Source: Siphonodentalium dalli
Lineage: Eukaryota; Mollusca; Scaphopoda; Gadilida; Siphonodentaliidae
Direction of reading: 5' to 3'
Assembly: GCA_032622095.1 (NCBI GenBank)
Contig: CP136064.1
Location: forward strand, 263,107,863-263,171,862
DNA length: 64,000 bases
Shown here: positions 3,764-55,740 of the stretch, one piece after another
Layout of the letters: the number at the start of each line of letters is the position of its first letter
Position numbering within the stretch: position 1 is the first letter of the stretch
Program-made: the position numbers and the translations under genes
Notes under the pieces: model-generated
Database searches by the model: none
Seen by the model: only the letters and a program-made list of their open reading frames with translations
Told to the model about the DNA's origin: nothing

Positions 3764-3831
3764 TTAACCCTTTCTATACTAAATACTCATTGACGAGTAG
3801 TTATCCCATAGGAAATGTGCAGATATTAACC
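3764..3831 (+). mobile_element. piggyBac-like MITE family A, isolated left-end unit
   Basis: TTAACCCTTTCTATACTAAA and the following ACTCATTGACGAGTAGTTA, ending at CAGATATTAAC. This single end unit is the same 68-base module that is tandemly repeated at 48778. It abuts an unrelated dispersed repeat at a second TTAA (3828-3831). Confidence 0.6.
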
Positions 3832-4030: not shown

Positions 4031-5880
4031 GTCGGGGAGCCCAGCAAGTTCTGTTCGAACTATTGAGTACGAAAGGTTTGATGTGCCTGAATTGGCTGAT
4101 AGCACAAACCCAATTCTTAAGTTCCACATTAAGGGGCCAGGGGCTCACCAACTCCCCCCCCCCCTTCCCAAATATCTTTTAGACGAACTTTCGAGTACGA
4201 GCACGAAATCTGCTGTAATCATAATTAGGTACTACACTGATCATAAAAACATTACTCAAGAAATGATTTGTTGCAGCATGTTCAGATAAGAAGGGGTCAT
4301 TTGACAGAAACCCCCAAAACGTAAAAAATCACTTTTATTTGAACTTTCGCGTACGACTTTGAAATTTACTATCGTCATTCCTTGAGATATACTAAACACA
4401 GAAACCCAACTTAAGAAGCGGATTCCCCTAAAACTTCCGGATATTCGCTAGTTGTCCGGGATCTGATAGCCCAGTAGTACCCCTGAACCCCATGACTTAA
4501 TTTCACCTTACTAATTGTATTCCTTGTTATGTCCCTCGCTGACATCTAAGCAATTTTAACATAACAAGTGGCGCGTAGTCACCAAACAAGATGGCTTCCA
4601 CTATGGCCGCCGTTTTTTAAGAATAGCCAATAAGTCAGTTAGATCCGAATTTTTGAGAGAAAATCTTGTCAAAAGTATGCAAATATATATATAGTGCCAC
4701 CGCTCTAGGGAAAATTTGAACTTCTCGTCCAAGATGGCCGCCAAAAAGGCCACCGGAACGGGAAAATTTTATTTTTCACTGATATTTTCTTATCAGTTTC
4801 TGCTGCTTGTAACTAATGGAGAATTCTGGCTTTATTTTGCGTGTTTCATGTTAAGCAACATATCACTGGAACAATAAGTTATGTCATTCTTTGGGTCACA
4901 CCAATTTCCGATTCACCAAAAGGCTGATTTTATAGAATGCAGTATCAGATTTCACCAAAAATCTCCATTGGGATTCCAGCATTGGACGTTGTAAGTTATC
5001 GCATACATTATGAATATTTTCAATAATCTCTCTCTAGATTTGACATTAAATCGGCTAAACTTCACTGTTTGCGAACTTGGACCATGTTTTCAAGAAAATG
5101 TAACTACCTTTAGTTTTAGGGGTGTTTGTTGTTTCGGAAATGTCTTTAAGGTGGTTTTCAAAAATGCAATCAAAATAAACAAAAGTTAATTTTTCACTTA
5201 TGAGAACGGTCGCAAACTGTTACTTTGTTATTAGACACGCTATGTAATCACCTGACAACTACATATAATATTATGGTGGTCCCAGTACCTTAATGAGGAT
5301 GACAAATTCAGTTTAATGGATGCAGTATGGAATTTTGCTGAAATGTCTTCTGGGATTATGGCCACGTTTTAAAGAGAACGACCAGAACTTTGCAAAGGAA
5401 GTGAGAGGGATCATAATATATAGCTACAATGAACATTGTCATCCTATTCATCCATTTAATACAGGTTGGATTAAAAAGATGACAGTCATATACCAAAATC
5501 CAACAGATTTTGCTCAATTTCTCTGGTAGCATTTGCAAGGTGTGATACATTAATTTATTTTGACTAATACGCCCGTTAAGCTTGAGGTGCCAGTTGAAAA
5601 ACTCCAACACAAAGAGTGTAAATAGAACATCTGTCTTGTTCGAGGTAGAGGGGACTAAAGTTGGAAAATATAAATTGTACACCCTATGTCGCCGCGTCCC
5701 TATGATCAGGACATAATTGCGGCAAACTCGCATAATTCGGTTGCAGTCGTATTGCCAAGAAAACAACGATAGCCGAATCTGGTGAACCGCGGGATGGCCA
5801 CATACATAAGACCATCAAGACAGCGCGGTTGAGTGGAGCGCACATCATTCTATTTTGTGTCGCTTGCTGTTCCGATCGCC
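4031..5880. other. Long non-coding stretch with old repeat debris
   Basis: It holds a poly-C run (4156-4165), two diverged copies of GAACTTTCG(A/C)GTACGA near 4184 and 4344, and AAGATGGC-type motifs (4590, 4731) that look like worn dispersed repeats. Frames of 60-136 residues across 5320-5770 have no domain I recognise, so I do not call a gene. Confidence 0.35.
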
Positions 5881-37254: not shown

Positions 37255-37810
37255 TGATGTGAGGTTTAACTCCATCTACATACAGTAATGTCCAAAGTAA
37301 TTGATCACTTAACCACAGCAAAATAATGGGTATTTTTTCATGATTTTAAATCCTGAAAATTACCCATAATTCTGCTGTGGTTAAGTGGTCAATTACTTTG
37401 GGCATTACTATAACCAATATAAGGATTTGAGGTGTAATGATAACTCAATTCTCATACAGTAATGTCCAAAGTAATTGACCACTTAACCGCAACATAATTA
37501 TTGGTAATTTGTCAGGATTTTAAATGCTGAAAAAATACCCATAATTCTGCTGTGGTTAAGTGGTCAATTACTTTGGGCATTACTGTAACCAATATAAGAA
37601 TTTGAGGTGTAATGATAACTCAATCCTCATACAGTAATGTACAAAGTAATTGACCACTTAACCACAGCAGAATAATGGGTAATTTTTCAGGATTTTAAAT
37701 CCTGAAAAATTACCAATAATTCTGATATGGTTAAGTGGTCAATTACTTTGGGCATTACTGTAACCAATTTAAGGATGTTAGGTTTAATGAGAACTCCATC
37801 CACATAACTA
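37255..37810. repeat. Tandem array of three mariner-like hairpins
   Basis: Hairpins start at 37283, 37457 and 37632 (period about 175). Each begins CAGTAATGT(C/A)CAAAGTAATT, runs through CCACTTAACC, folds near the middle (GGATTTTAAATCCTGA in copy 3) and ends CTTTGGGCATTACT(G/A). TA flanks both ends of each. A shared ~47-bp spacer (ACCAATATAAG...GAACTC-like) separates them and recurs, partly, before the first and after the last. Confidence 0.85.
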
Positions 37811-40313: not shown

Positions 40314-40597
40314 CAGTAATGCTCTATTTAATCGACCTCTTAACCACAGCAGAATTATGGGTAACTTTTCAGGATTTAGTCGGAAATATGGCTTGTTGCA
40401 ATTCATCGGAAAGCTCTCGCCAGAATTATGGGTAACTTTTCATGATTTAGTCGGAAATATGGCTTGTTGCCATTCATCGGAAAGCTCTCGGCGAGAGCTT
40501 TCCGATTAATGACAACAAGCCATATTTCCGACTAAATCCTGAAAAGTTACCCATAATTCTGCTGTGGTTAAGAGGTCGATTAATTAGAGCATTACTG
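40314..40597. mobile_element. Mariner-like foldback with one arm duplicated
   Basis: The ends are CAGTAATGCTCTA and its inverse, flanked by TTA on both sides. The arms carry TTAACCACAGCAGAATTATG-GGTAA, as in the array at 37283. The left arm holds a 71-bp direct duplication (AGAATTATGGGTAACTTTTC at 40351 and 40422), while the right arm has one copy. The centre folds at GAAAGCTCTCGGCGAGAGCTTTC. Confidence 0.8.
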
Positions 40598-41105: not shown

Positions 41106-42470
41106 ATGGCCGGTGAAGTGTTGGAAAGGAAAACCCGGCTTATTGGTACTTGGTACGATGATGTTGTTTCTGACAACATTATTAGGTACATTAATGGTGT
41201 CATGCACGTGGAGAAGGGGAGAAAAGTGCATTTAAAGTTGACACGTGAAGGACTGAAACTAGTAAAAAGTTCGACATTCGAAGGTAAAACTGTACTGGAT
41301 GTTATCCCACTGGAGGGTATATTTTACATCACAGTCAATCAACATGTCACCACTAACATGCTTGTTATCACTCGACATAAGGTTAAGAAATATCAGATCA
41401 TTGCATTCCGCTGTCAATCCCCGGTAGATGCAGGATTATTCGTGCAGACGTTCAAAGATTTTCGACGCCGGCTAATCGAAAAACATAAGGATTATAATAG
41501 TTTTTTAAAGGATCGGCCCGCAGTAAATGGTAACGGGGGTATCCTAGCAACAAAAAGAAATTCGGAGGAAATAATTCCAAACGGAATTCGGGTGCATGTT
41601 TTTTCCAGAAATGTTGGAACATACTGTTCGCCGTTGCTCAGTGGCGGCCACTACGGCACAAATCTCATCGGATTTCAAGATGTCGAAGAGCACCTGGTTG
41701 AGAGAGAAGAGGTTGTTGTTGACAACGTGACACAACTCAACGCGGGAACCCAAACACCTAACGTCACACTCGATGATGATACTTCCTCCACCTCGTCGTT
41801 GAGTTTAGCAAACGAGCTTGACTCTTTAACAAATGAGTTAAAAGATATGAAATTTATGTTGGAAAGATCGTCTGGAATCGCGGCAGACGATACTGAACTC
41901 AACGGTGGCGTTTTTATTGATGACCACGTGACACATGCAACCCAAACCATTCCCGGCAACCGAAAACGGACAATTGACATTTCGCAGGAAAGTGTTCCGA
42001 TTTCTCACAAAGTTAATAAGGTGAATTTCAGGTCGTGGAATGAATCCGTTAACACATCTGATTCCATTAAATCTAATTCGAAAGTTATTTATCGAGCGTC
42101 GATAGGACCGCTTGGTGGTGAAGAAGAGAATGGGATGGTTACCAAACAAGATAACCATGTTTCCTGGAATCCAACTGTTTCTGTCGAGAGGAGATCTAAA
42201 TCCCTCGTCGTGAGGAGATCTGGTGCTCCATTAAATACCTTCATAGACAAACCTATCGAAACTGTGTATCCCAAACGGCCAATACTGAAAAACGCTATGT
42301 ACTATAAACCAGAGCGTTCGGCATCGGTCGGGAGAAGACCGCAATCCGAAATTATACAGAGTGGGACAGTTTATTTGAGTGACCCGAAGCGAGCGAGATT
42401 CGGAGGATCGCTCAAACACAGGCTCGTTCAAAATGGTGCTCCACCCAAAAAGGTCGCTATCAAATCCTGA
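41106..42470 (+). CDS. PTB/PH-like domain protein, 454 aa, uninterrupted
   Basis: A long open frame starting CAAATATGGCC (fair initiation context) and ending TGA, unlike anything else here. Residues about 10-130 look like a PTB/PH fold: beta-strand-like HLKLTREGLKLV (42-53), VIPLEGIFYITVN (66-78), NMLVITRHKVKKYQIIAFRC (84-103), then a closing amphipathic helix SPVDAGLFVQTFKDFRRRLI (105-124). Residues 140-454 are mostly polar and probably disordered, with a short predicted helix SLANELDSLTNELKDMKFML (233-252), two TQT motifs (215-217, 279-281) and a basic C-terminus (KRARF, 428-432). PTB domains bind peptides or phosphoinositides at membranes, so an adaptor role is inferred. FAM43-like adaptors are the nearest comparison I can offer, unproved. 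No intron is visible; a retrogene origin or a single coding exon is possible. Confidence 0.85.
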   Translation: MAGEVLERKTRLIGTWYDDVVSDNIIRYINGVMHVEKGRKVHLKLTREGLKLVKSSTFEGKTVLDVIPLEGIFYITVNQHVTTNMLVITRHKVKKYQIIAFRCQSPVDAGLFVQTFKDFRRRLIEKHKDYNSFLKDRPAVNGNGGILATKRNSEEIIPNGIRVHVFSRNVGTYCSPLLSGGHYGTNLIGFQDVEEHLVEREEVVVDNVTQLNAGTQTPNVTLDDDTSSTSSLSLANELDSLTNELKDMKFMLERSSGIAADDTELNGGVFIDDHVTHATQTIPGNRKRTIDISQESVPISHKVNKVNFRSWNESVNTSDSIKSNSKVIYRASIGPLGGEEENGMVTKQDNHVSWNPTVSVERRSKSLVVRRSGAPLNTFIDKPIETVYPKRPILKNAMYYKPERSASVGRRPQSEIIQSGTVYLSDPKRARFGGSLKHRLVQNGAPPKKVAIKS

Positions 42471-45464: not shown

Positions 45465-46123
45465 TTAACCCTTTCTAAACTAAATACTCATTGACGAGTA
45501 GTTCCCACAGGAATGGTTCAGATAATAACTTCAACAAATGAACATAGGCCGTTTTGTTGAAATTATTATCTGAACATGTCCCACCAATGAATGAATAGGA
45601 ATCATTCTACTATTATATTACTCCCTTTTTCCTAGATTTACAGTGTATCTATTTTTACAAATCCGCATGGAACATACATTACATACGCATCCTATTGACG
45701 TCACGCGGCGTACACTGTAAATGTCGTTGCCTGACCATGAACCTGAACTGTAAAAGCATCATCATACATGAAAAAACAAGTTTTGAATAAACCTTATAAG
45801 TCTGTTTTTTTTTATTCATGGATTCTAAGACGGGTGGCTTGTAATAAACACAGAACGAAATGTATGGTAATGGGTTTATTGACACGACACGAGTGCCATC
45901 GCGGAAGGGTGTAACTCGAGGCTGTGCCCCTCGTTCTATCCTCCCGCGCTAGCACTCGTGCCATAACAACAAACCCATTAACACACTTGTATTGATTGTT
46001 CTGTGTGTATATTATCTGTAGTTTCTTTTATTACATGAACACCCCTCCAAATGGATAATAACCGGTTCCAATGTTTCCTTTCATAACTAGGTGGGATAAT
46101 CCATGTAGTATAGAAAGGGTTAA
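45465..46123 (+). mobile_element. piggyBac-like MITE, family A, full-length copy
   Basis: Left TTAACCCTTTCTAAACTAAA and right AGTATAGAAAGGGTTAA; TTAA at both edges (45465-45468 and 46120-46123). The internal inverted pair CAGATAATAACTTCAACAAA / TTGTTGAAATTATTATCTGA follows the left end unit. A GC-rich hairpin insert (about 45875-45963, CACGAGTGCCATCGCGG / CCGCGCTAGCACTCGTG) enlarges it compared with the 254-bp copy at 55487. Confidence 0.8.
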
Positions 46124-47439: not shown

Positions 47440-48400
47440 CCAACATTTTTTTCTTCATATGGCTGAAATATTTGTTGCTGCTTTATTCTTCATTGTAATA
47501 TATGTGACCCGCCATATCAAATCCAGTCGTAAGTCGTAAGTTTTTTTACCCTGTGCCAATGCATTCTCTTATATATGCGAGTCGACCATAAGTCGCCTCG
47601 CATATATAAGAGAATGCATTGGCCTAACAAATTTTTACAATTTTAATAATTTTTTCTTGTATTCTTTAACAATTTTATAATGTCACCCATACAGAGCCCT
47701 AGACAAACATGAGCAGACGACACTCTTCTATATGCTTCTATATATGTGTGGGGCTCCCTGCAGGGTAATGGATGTTTTTTTATTTTATGTCCTAAAAATT
47801 GTAAGAAACATTTATTTAAAAAAGATGATAAAAAATTGTTAGGCCAATGCATTCTCTTATATATGCGAGGCGACCTATGGTCGACTCGCATATATAAGAG
47901 AATGCATTGGCACAGGGTAAAAAAATATCCCGACTTACGACTGGATTTTATATGGCGGGTCACATATGGGAGTATGATAGTACATCATGCAATTTAAAAC
48001 TCAACTCAGCATTCTGACTCAAATAAAGCTTCCTCTATTAGGGGCAAGACAACAAGCTACTTTGACTGGATTTTTGATTGAAATTATTATAATTAATTAT
48101 TTAAGCAGTTTTTGGTATCTAAAGTGATAAAACAAAATACAACATTTTTCATGTAATGTTTCTCATTCAAAGAATATGATGATATGTGAAATTCAAGATT
48201 TTTACCTTTGGTAAAGATGCATTTTATATGCATGTTTCCGTTCATATTTTGCCACCATATGGTTTTCAACAATGAACTGTCTGCAAAACATACCGTGCAC
48301 ATGTGCCATCATGTGAATGTACACTTGGGAGGAGAATGTCATTCAGTGACAGGTGAACAATGGGACATTCAGGTGACCCAGTTAAAGTCCCGCGATACCT
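47440..48400 (+). repeat. Diverged repeat M, copy 1, carrying a MITE
   Basis: 47440-47500 plus 47966-48300 align in order with 53998-54330 (TTTATTCTTCATTGTAATAT; ATGCAATT(T)AAAA; GACAAGCTA/GACAATAAGCTA; GATGATAT...AACTCAAGATTTTT-like words). The interrupting 462 bases are the family-D element. Confidence 0.55.
47503..47964. mobile_element. Family-D MITE with outer TIR and two hairpin caps
   Basis: TGTGACCCGCCATATCAAAT-CCAGTCGTAAGTC at left and its inverse at right, flanked by TA (47501-47502 and 47965-47966). Inside each terminus sits the CCCTGTGCCAATGCATTCTC hairpin also seen at 7743. The core includes a CCCATACAGAGCCC / GGGGCTCCCTGCAGGG segment. No coding sequence. Confidence 0.85.
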
Positions 48401-48466
48401 GAATTACTTTCGGAAACCATATGTCAGAACACAAAAACTAATTTATGCCAAGAATGCGAGCCAAAT

Positions 48467-48612
48467 ATATATTCGCGTTTGCCTGTGAGTAATGCACTCT
48501 GCACACTGCATACCACACTTGAGACCACTGGTTTTATGTTATATATTCGCGTTTGACTGTGAGTAATGCACACTGCACACTGCATACCACACTGAGAACA
48601 CTGGTTTTATTG
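48467..48612 (+). repeat. Direct tandem duplication, period 74
   Basis: TATATTCGCGTTTG(C/A)CTGTG-AGTAATGCAC and CTGCACACTGCATACCACAC occur twice (attcgcg at 48471 and 48545). Confidence 0.9.
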
Positions 48613-48777
48613 TGGCTTATTAGTCATCATAATTATACAGACTACACCCAAAATTAATCAGCAAATTCTAATTTGCAAAGGACCATAACTCTAACAAAAT
48701 TCATCGGACCTAACCTTGATTGTATCTTGACCTCTATTATGTGAGTACTATTCCACACACTTAATTTAAAAGCAGCC
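48613..48777. other. Non-coding spacer
   Basis: No feature recognised between the 74-bp duplication and the 68-bp array. Confidence 0.35.
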
Positions 48778-49924
48778 TTAACCCTTCTATACTAAATGCT
48801 CAATGGTGAGCAGTTACCCCTTAGGTAATGTTCAGATAATAAGTTTAACCCTTTCTATACTAAATACTCAATAGTGAGCAGTTACCCATTAGGTAATGTT
48901 CAGATAATAAGTTTAACCCTTTCTATACTAAATACTCAATGGTGAGCAGTTACCCATTAGGTAATGTTCAGATAATAAGTTTAACCCTTTCTATACTAAA
49001 TACTCAATGGTGAGCAGTTACCCATTAGGTAATGTTCAGATAATAAGTTTAACCCTTTCTATACTAAATACTCAATAGTGAGCAGTTACCCCTTAGGTAA
49101 TGTTCAGATAATAAGTTTAATCCTTTCTATACTAAATACTCAATGGTGAGTAGCTACCCCTTAGGTAATTTTCAGATAATAAGTTTAACCCTTTCTATAC
49201 TAAACACTCAATGGTGAGCAGTTACCCCTTAGGTAATGTTCAGATAATAAGTTTAACCCTTTCTATACTAAATACTCAATGATGAGCAGTTACCCCTTAG
49301 GTAATGTTCAGATAATAAGTTTAACCCTTTCTATACTAAATACTCAATGGTGAGCAGTTACCCCTTAGGTAATGTTCAGATAATAAGTTTAACCCTTTCT
49401 ATACTAAATACTCAATGGTGAGCAGTTACCCCTTAGGTAATGTTCAGATAATAAGTTTAACCCTTTCTATACTAAATACTCAATGGTGAGCAGTTACCCC
49501 TTATGTAATGTTCAGATAATAAGTTTAACCCTTTCTATATTAAATACTCAATGGTGAGCATTTACCCCTTAGGTAATGTTCAGATAATAAGTTTAACCCT
49601 TTCTATACTAAATACTCAATGGTGAGCAGTTACCCATTAGGTAACGTTCAGATAACAAGTTTAACCCTTTCTATACTAAATACTCAATGGTGAGTAGTTA
49701 CCCCTTAGGTAATGTTCAGATAATAAGTTCAACAAACGATTGTCGATTGTTGCACTTAATATCTGAACATTTCCCTGCAATAAATAGGACTCCTTCTGCA
49801 TTTGTATTATCTGTCATATCATCTGATTAATTTTCTTGAAAACCCCTCTGGATGAATAATAGACGCTTACAATGTAGTCTTTTATAACTGAATGTGAGAG
49901 TCCATTCAGGATAGAAAGGTCTAA
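48778..49924 (+). mobile_element. piggyBac-like MITE, family A, with 14-fold amplified left end
   Basis: TTAACCCTTTCTATACTAAA starts at 48778, 48845, then every 68 bases to 49661: 14 units. Each unit contains TTAA, the terminal inverted repeat, the short hairpins CTCA-ATGG-TGAG and TTACC-CCTTA-GGTAA, and CAGATAATAAGT. After the last unit the normal MITE body follows (AACAAACGATTG...TGCACTTAATATCTGAACAT) and ends in a worn right terminus, GGATAGAAAGGTCTAA (about 49909-49924). One element has thus turned its own terminus into a satellite-like array. Confidence 0.9.
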
Positions 49925-50810
49925 TTGTGTTACCCAAAAAGCGAGAGAGCATCAAATTTACAATCCATAAAATTTAATTTCACCGGCAAATCAGTTTTAA
50001 ATTGAACATTCCAACTGGTACCTCACACTTTCCAAATGTTGGAAGTTTCTAACTTGCACTCCCCTAACGTTACAACATTTCCAACTGATGGCAATTTCAG
50101 ACCAAATGTAGACAAATATGCTGCAGTTGGTCTAAAAACAACATATTCCCCACTAATTAATGGTTGGAAATTCAAATAAAGAGAACAATTTCAACCTATC
50201 TGTTGTGTAAAATTTCCAATTAATGTTGTGTCAGGCATGAAATTTCCAACTGTTGAAAAATGTGATAAAAGTAGACACTTCAAGACTAGGAACCTACGTC
50301 ACTAATGTAATCTCTAATCCAAAGTGGTTTTGCTTTTAAATTTGTTTAAAACATACATACATGTTTGTCTGCATGGTGGGATAAACTTGTACATGAGCTG
50401 TGGAAATTGACATTGCAAATTAAGAAATTAGTAGTAGATAAAACTCATAATTATAATAAGAATTTACAAGAAAAATAGGTATCGATGTGCCCCAATTTTA
50501 AACATCAACATGAGTTCCGGGTATCAGTTACCCGAGCGTATGAGGCGACTGTTTGTAGATTACAATATTGACGTGGGTTCCAGACCCTGCCCCAAAAAGG
50601 TCTATTGAAGCCACGGGTCCCCAGATAGAAAGGGTCCCCATATAGAAAGGGACCAACTTGGCCGGGCCTAAATTTTTGTTATCATTTTTAACGCCCACCA
50701 ACTGGTTTAAAATACACAAAAATAATATTTGTTACATAAATGCCTCATATATGGATAGAAAGATGTTTTATTACTCTTAAATTGATGTATCAGGTGTAAA
50801 AATTGGTTTA
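49925..50810. other. Non-coding; TTTCCAAC-rich stretch
   Basis: Between about 49990 and 50260 TTCCAACT/GTTGGAA words recur about ten times in either orientation; a similar cluster lies at 63270-63480. From 50500 a short pair, GGGTCCCCAGATAGAAAGG / GGGTCCCCATATAGAAAGG, is tandem (about 50608 and 50629). No exon. Confidence 0.4.
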
Positions 50811-51286
50811 GAACAACTCCGGTTATGAGCGCATGTCTGACGCAGACCGGCAGTGTTTTCTACTCCTTTGACTTGATGTCCCCTAAACTGGATCAAAGGG
50901 TCGGATTTTTTACTGACAGGCGCTTCAAAAACACACTCAATGGTAAGAAGGTCATATATATAGTATACACCATTGAAGCGGAATTGTTTATTGACCCACC
51001 CAAAACGAATCACGCCACGTGACGGCCCCGTATCTCTCGTGTTTACTGAAAAATCATTTTCATAAATCCGGAAGAAAATTTCAAAATAAAAAAAAGGCTG
51101 GGTCAGTAAACAATTCCGCTTCTAATGGTGTATACTATATATATGATACTTACCGCTGAGCGTGTCTTTGGGGCGAGATTCCGTATAAAAACAGAATATT
51201 TTCCCGAGCTGGAGCGGACATGTCGAAAAAGTAAAAAAAACAGCAGATCTGCGTCAGACTTGCGCTCATAACCGGAGTTCTTCTCA
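50811..51286. mobile_element. Foldback element with ~200-bp arms
   Basis: GAACAACTCCGGTTATGAGC-GCATGTCTGACGCAGA at left pairs with the inverse at 51250-51286. Pairing resumes near the centre: AGTATACACCATTGAAGCGG-AATTGTTTA(T)TGACCCA against its inverse (about 51105-51140). The reading frames in the arms mirror each other and are not genes. Confidence 0.8.
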
Positions 51287-55486: not shown

Positions 55487-55740
55487 TTAACATAGAGTGT
55501 GGAATCTACATGATTACAATGGAGTAGTCTATTATTAACATGGGGGTGTTCGGGAATAAAAGCAGACGACAAACAGACAAAATGATAGTAGGGTAGCAGA
55601 AGGATATATATATCCATCAGATGGAAATCTTCAGATAATAAGTTTAACAATCGGCTTATGGTCATTTGTTGAACTTATTATCTGAACATTTCCTAAGGGA
55701 TAACTACTCGTCAATGAGTATTTAGTAAAGAAAGGGTTAA
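55487..55740 (-). mobile_element. piggyBac-like MITE, family A, short complete copy
   Basis: TTAA at 55487-55490 and AGTAAAGAAAGGGTTAA at the right (TTAA 55737-55740). It contains GGGGGTGTTCGGGAATAAAA-GCAGACGAC, then the inverted pair AGATAATAAGTTTAACAA / TTGTTGAACTTATTATCTGA and GATAACTACTCGTCAATGAG. At 254 bp, without the GC-rich insert, it is probably close to the basic form. Confidence 0.75.

Follow-up and report, generated by a model that had tools for sequence, protein, structure and literature searches.

Tandem repeats born from MITEs are already known from several systems, and the array described here is of the same kind. The Xmix MITE of Xenopus, a T2-MITE of the Kolobok group that targets TTAA, donated a segment that gave rise to the large tandem repeat family Xstir, and MITE, array and composite forms coexist (PMC6004289, PMC9659126, PMC12628747). 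In Xenopus tropicalis, the MITE-borne motif of miDNA4 occurs either singly or in arrays whose copy number varies, and a model of expansion through microhomology has been given (PMC9659126, PMC12628747). Tandem repeats inside the terminal inverted repeats of Tetris (TIR-220) are reported to have built satellite arrays in Drosophila virilis (PMC4079207). Finally, the CMITEs of Acropora corals are described as piggyBac-like MITEs that target TTAA and have CCCTTT-type ends in most families, and their tandem arrays are ascribed there to replication slippage.

The element studied here occupies positions 48778–49924 (plus strand) of a 64-kb stretch of DNA from the scaphopod Siphonodentalium dalli, which is referred to as the window, and consists of a left terminal array, a MITE body and a right terminal inverted repeat. 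The original prediction, made from the letters alone, had recognized 14 head-to-tail units of 68 bp, each containing TTAA, the terminus and two tiny hairpins, joined to one body and one right end. All of these features were recovered. TRF reports a period of 68 with 14.1 copies, 96% matches and a score of 1765 (positions 48778–49733), and a listing of the individual units assigns 14 left-terminal, TTAA-led units to positions 48778–49728 (plus strand), the first of which comprises 67 bp with its CCCTTT short of one T. As a control, 200 dinucleotide-preserving shuffles of positions 47901–50900 yielded three TRF rows in total, none of them with a period of 40 or more. TTAA starts all 14 units (TTAATCC in unit 6), with the TTAA at the left edge (48778–48781) representing the target copy, and the two small hairpins are present, but weak (−4.8 kcal/mol, DNA parameters). 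The body with the single right end (..GGATAGAAAGGTCTAA) follows downstream at positions 49731–49924 (plus strand). The 14-unit array is thus confirmed as real. In addition, a larger hairpin that had escaped earlier attention is predicted at positions 49708–49774 (plus strand), where the end of the last unit meets the start of the body; its arms are imperfect in the window copy. Close by, upstream of the array, TRF also detects two 74-bp repeats (48466–48610).

To describe the family to which this element belongs, we searched a genome of 2,226,750,531 bases in 9 contigs and derived a consensus from 42 aligned rows, which represent bodies plus their left sides and come mostly from single-unit copies. 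The consensus measures ~257 bp, as counted by hand and including both TTAA, and carries the ends TTAACCCTTTCTATACTAAAT and its inverse. Here, the hairpin at the junction of left unit and body has 30-bp arms and a 5-base loop; one arm comprises the unit's final 21 bases plus the body's initial 9, and their pairing partner is an inverted copy within the body. The right end matches 22,824 places in the genome (at most three mismatches); for the unit-unit junction, 20,950 matching places were counted (at most two mismatches), and the reversed control gave 0 matches in either case. Multiplied by 68 bp, the unit-unit junctions amount to ~1.4 Mb or more. The family has the hallmarks of a MITE, that is, a short consensus with terminal inverted repeats, a high copy number as judged from the right ends, and a target-site duplication with TTAA at both ends of L017, L032 and a further copy at positions 786–1100 of the window. 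Unlike these three copies, the window element has CTAA as the target-site copy on its right (49921–49924). When 40 of 437 candidates were scored for an empty site of the window insertion, none of the 43 matches spanned both flanks, and a 100% match was obtained only to the window locus itself.

With regard to class, the family combines a TTAA target with CCC-type termini, comparable to the CCCTTT ends of the piggyBac-like coral MITEs, and piggyBac transposase genes are abundant in this genome (128 matches with 116 of 649 candidates scored). Because of the TTAA and CCCTTT ends and these abundant transposase genes, the family is probably mobilized by piggyBac. The affiliation with piggyBac suggested previously rests on these features. 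Identity with the Kolobok T2-MITEs was rejected, as the termini are CCCTTT rather than the AGGRR next to TTAA given in the definition (PMC6004289).

Comparison with the known systems reveals a distinct difference in each case. The family of Xmix has terminal AGGRR, whereas the MITE studied here has CCCTTT ends, and Xstir is reported to have arisen by amplification of an internal segment (one review's table gives the TIR as its source), whereas here the outermost terminus was amplified together with TTAA. miDNA4 is borne by a Tc1/mariner MITE and its motif is internal, while the present MITE is of another superfamily and the unit is the terminus. Tetris is Foldback-like with ~220-bp repeats internal to the TIRs, as compared to a 68-bp outer terminus amplified on one side in our case. 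In CMITE, whole elements are arranged in tandem, but here it is the left terminus only. Thus, what sets this array apart from the known MITE-born repeats is that the one-sided, outermost terminus with its target site is amplified and that this recurs frequently in one genome. A word search of titles and abstracts, a type of search that is blind to sequence, retrieved no description of this element.

How many units do other copies carry? A search with the body only, which is neutral with respect to arrays, provided 40 scored loci, the best among 3,657 first-look candidates in terms of similarity to the window body. This sample includes the window, and the 39 other bodies were fetched for counting of units. 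One unit was present in 31 of the 39, two to five units in three (two in L070 and L079, five in L060), and none was detected in five; likely duplicate loci are among them (L057/L058/L069, L049/L061 and L064/L075). The single-unit form is thus the common one. In a second search with array plus body, which favours arrays, 40 of 7,098 first-look candidates were scored and gave 33 clusters including the window. All 32 non-window clusters were fetched and contain at least 14 units each, the longest stretch being a single 9.8-kb piece with 139 units, cut at both ends (L040). The 33 fetched array regions correspond to 32 loci, one locus being present in two pieces, and L024 is a duplicate of L023. 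Next to the array, 17 of these 33 regions (L024 included) carry a body that covers 110 or more model positions, and in the remaining regions the body is partial, missing or cut off. The notion of a satellite unit existing without MITE bodies, which had been named as an objection to a transposon origin, thus applies in part. As in miDNA4-like satellites borne by MITEs, the unit is single in some copies and tandem in others.

Given the frequency of the identical unit-unit junction in the genome and the 32 other loci with at least 14 units, we reject the window array as an isolated event. The same 32 loci, which carry arrays of the same unit in differing numbers, also bear on the question whether an assembly artefact produced the window array, which is known from the assembly alone. 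As substitutions additionally distinguish the units (mean identity 0.962), an artefact is hardly credible.

Further copies, likewise absent from the original prediction, reside within the window itself. A second multi-unit copy, at positions 786–1100 on the minus strand, consists of two diverged units plus body with TTAA at each end; TRF assigns two 67-bp units with 95% matches to positions 962–1101, and this copy appears to have been duplicated independently, at the same junction. At positions 45465–46123 (plus strand), a single unit and the hairpin are found at the left and a GGGTTAA right end at 46123, which represents one longer element or two neighbours. A relative with a single unit and a partial body match is located at 55506–55740 (minus strand), and a solo unit without body, flanked by two TTAA, at 3764–3829 (plus strand). 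Apart from these copies, TRF detects tandem repeats of 175 bp (37267–37796) and 71 bp (40350–40490) with a common motif around ATGGGTAA.TTTTCAGGATTT, possibly another element with amplified parts, and an uninterrupted open frame of 454 amino acids is present at 41106–42470.

Judging from the sequences of its units, the window array probably grew in place. Relative to the single-unit consensus, every one of the 14 units carries differences at positions 27, 31, 41 and 50, and most of them also at positions 30 and 35; the variant at position 31 is common in other arrays too. The inverted copy in the window body has kept the consensus base at position 50, and therefore the left unit seems to have been mutated before amplification. 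A 33-base stretch representing the window variant (at most three mismatches) matches 15 places in the genome, 14 of which are inside the window array, and the lone outside match carries three mismatches. As the variants of the window units are found almost nowhere else, one already mutated local terminus is most likely their ancestor. Unit identity within the window array is 0.962, within a range of 0.841–0.976 over 37 array rows; the corresponding values are 0.883 for units of different arrays and 0.844 for 30 single units.

Signs of local growth are seen in other arrays as well. The nearest neighbour of a unit resides in the same array for 77.7% of 1,329 units from 33 arrays (6.1% by chance), with a share that ranges from 0 to 100% array by array; L024 was excluded from this analysis and from the tree as a duplicate of L023, and L001–L008, which overlap later loci, were excluded from the unit and tree analyses. 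In L079, four substitutions are common to both units. Counting against local growth, identity within L060 (0.841) is below the mean between arrays (0.883). Private variants were also considered as a general rule, but this was not upheld, as the variant of L014 (at most one mismatch) failed with 13 of 20 places at the L014 locus and seven elsewhere. The original prediction of a satellite being born from a transposon end can thus be refined: the end of a TTAA-type MITE was amplified, most likely in place, but this was no lone birth, as arrays exist at many loci.

A different picture emerges for a second kind of unit, which has GCA at unit positions 21–23. This GCA type dominates 21 of 37 array rows and none of 30 single units, a contrast that is biased inasmuch as most of the single units were taken from the body sample and hence from the window kind. 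Despite this bias, the contrast suggests that part of the arrays spread by descent or exchange. Genome-wide, consensus patterns with at most three mismatches detect 10,747 unit-unit versus 929 unit-body junctions for GCA, but 854 versus 731 for TAC, i.e. GCA is found far more often in arrays than TAC. Among 29 exact GCA unit-body places, five were fetched; another unit is present upstream in four and other sequence in one (L083), and therefore single GCA copies exist.

We also addressed descent with a tree built from 171 alignment columns for 75 bodies, of which 21 have arrays, 40 have single units and 14 lack scored units; the alignment is short, most branches are weak, and gain is not separable from loss. 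A single clade for all array-bearing bodies is ruled out by the AU test (p = 0.0008), which speaks for separate origins. The array label requires 14 changes over 21 arrays as compared to a mean of 17.7 in shuffles (p = 0.032), and therefore arrays are partly clustered. The quick tree contains an array-rich branch of 11 rows with nine arrays (support 94). Upon removal of these nine, which was decided after inspection of the quick tree, the other 12 arrays need 11 changes, with 10.9 in shuffles. This branch, together with the junction counts for GCA and TAC and the upstream units at four of the five GCA places examined, would be explained if an array-bearing MITE subfamily moved with its units and if the window array had been carried in by transposition as a descendant of it. 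For the window, this is unlikely: TAC accounts for 12 of its 14 units and GCA for none, its variant is almost confined to it, and its body lies outside the array-rich branch.

Unit types can also be mixed. At least two GCA and at least two TAC units occur together in 9 of 37 array rows (8 regions), and in L060, two TAC units enclose three GCA units. Based on these mixed arrays, on L060 and on the junction counts of both types, an array-rich kind exists alongside local growth, probably with exchange between elements. In L019, L021 and L040, unit types appear in recurring blocks, resembling higher-order repeats inside arrays. Related loci differ in unit number: the duplicates L023 and L024 contain 74 and 75 units, respectively, and L020 comprises two inverted copies with a common left flank and target site, but with 22 versus 1 units. 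The L020 copies share 301 bp of homology at 90%, which covers left flank, units and body. As no matching right flank was found for this pair and the unit types of the copies differ, L020 may reflect import or a repeat-borne site rather than simple expansion. Units might accordingly invade from elsewhere, with gene conversion or reinsertion of circular DNA transferring them from another array to the end of a resident MITE, a possibility to which the mixed arrays, L060 and the L020 copies lend some weight. As an origin of the window array it appears quite improbable, since the window variant is almost private and GCA units are absent, and mixed arrays in general could derive from one ancestral mixed array. 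Growth in place remains the preferred reading for the window.

Compared with unit-body junctions, arrays are shifted towards the chromosome ends. The outer 20% of either chromosome end holds 30 of 40 TAC unit-unit clusters, but 27 of 92 TAC unit-body places (p = 1.7e-8); the clusters derive from 99 of 100 listed places (854 in total, one with two mismatches omitted) and the unit-body places are 92 of 100 listed ones (731 in total, eight with two mismatches omitted). Likewise, 25 of 33 array loci (the array-plus-body clusters) are located there, as compared to 15 of 39 body-only places (p = 0.0005). For the GCA type, considered on C1 only, the outer 20% contains 33 of 38 unit-unit clusters, obtained from 100 listed places, versus 10 of 16 unit-body places (p = 0.019). 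If recombination rates rise towards the ends, this distal bias would fit an expansion of arrays by recombination.

Mechanistically, the first duplication could have occurred by replication slippage or template switching at the junction hairpin, whose arms (30 bp in the consensus) connect the unit end with an inverted counterpart within the body. This step may have been aided by the similarity between TTCAAC, at the border of unit and body, and TTTAAC, at the unit start. Once two units are present, unequal exchange would enlarge, shrink and homogenize the array, presumably more strongly near chromosome ends, and exchange between elements could mix the unit types.

The original prediction had also considered repeated end-joining at TTAA, but this is unnecessary for explaining the observations, and no role of transposase in array building is needed. 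In such a scenario, repeated cutting and joining at TTAA would assemble the array from ends, in line with the TTAA and terminus at the start of every window unit and with the array of L009, which ends exactly at TTAA before new sequence begins. The other array ends examined lie at differing positions or in hairpin or body pieces, and the invariant inner end, AATAAGT, is no TTAA border, making assembly by transposase very improbable. As an observation of its own, the 46-unit array of L009 stops at position 5592 next to unrelated sequence, the arrangement that would be expected if body and right end had been excised precisely; this is the one possible case of precise TTAA excision among 19 array ends examined. 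In L037 (4640–5974), the DNA between two arrays of the same orientation has inverted ends (CCAGTGTTCACGCTG), which resembles the insertion of a different element at, or adjacent to, a unit's TTAA.

Taken together, we favour, with a probability of roughly 0.7, a scenario in which the left 68-bp terminus of an abundant TTAA-type and probably piggyBac-mobilized MITE of ~257 bp, including TTAA, was amplified in place into 14 units, by what we infer to be slippage and unequal exchange. The window array probably has no selected function. In a bolder and rather doubtful version, tens of thousands of dispersed MITE copies would provide landing sites and seeds for one satellite, which would be born by slippage at hairpins of single copies, expand mainly near chromosome ends and see one successful unit type spread by exchange to further MITE copies, thus forming a self-renewing nursery with a surplus of transposase-binding ends. 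If the units bind transposase, arrays might serve as putative decoys. The starts of satellites are mostly reconstructed from finished products. In the present case, a single genome contains the state before (single-unit copies), the first steps (two to five units) and long arrays of one and the same unit. With all stages present, and with duplicated loci of unequal unit number, it should be possible to measure rates, mechanism and the influence of chromosome position side by side. This MITE family thus represents a natural test case for the origin of satellite DNA from transposons.
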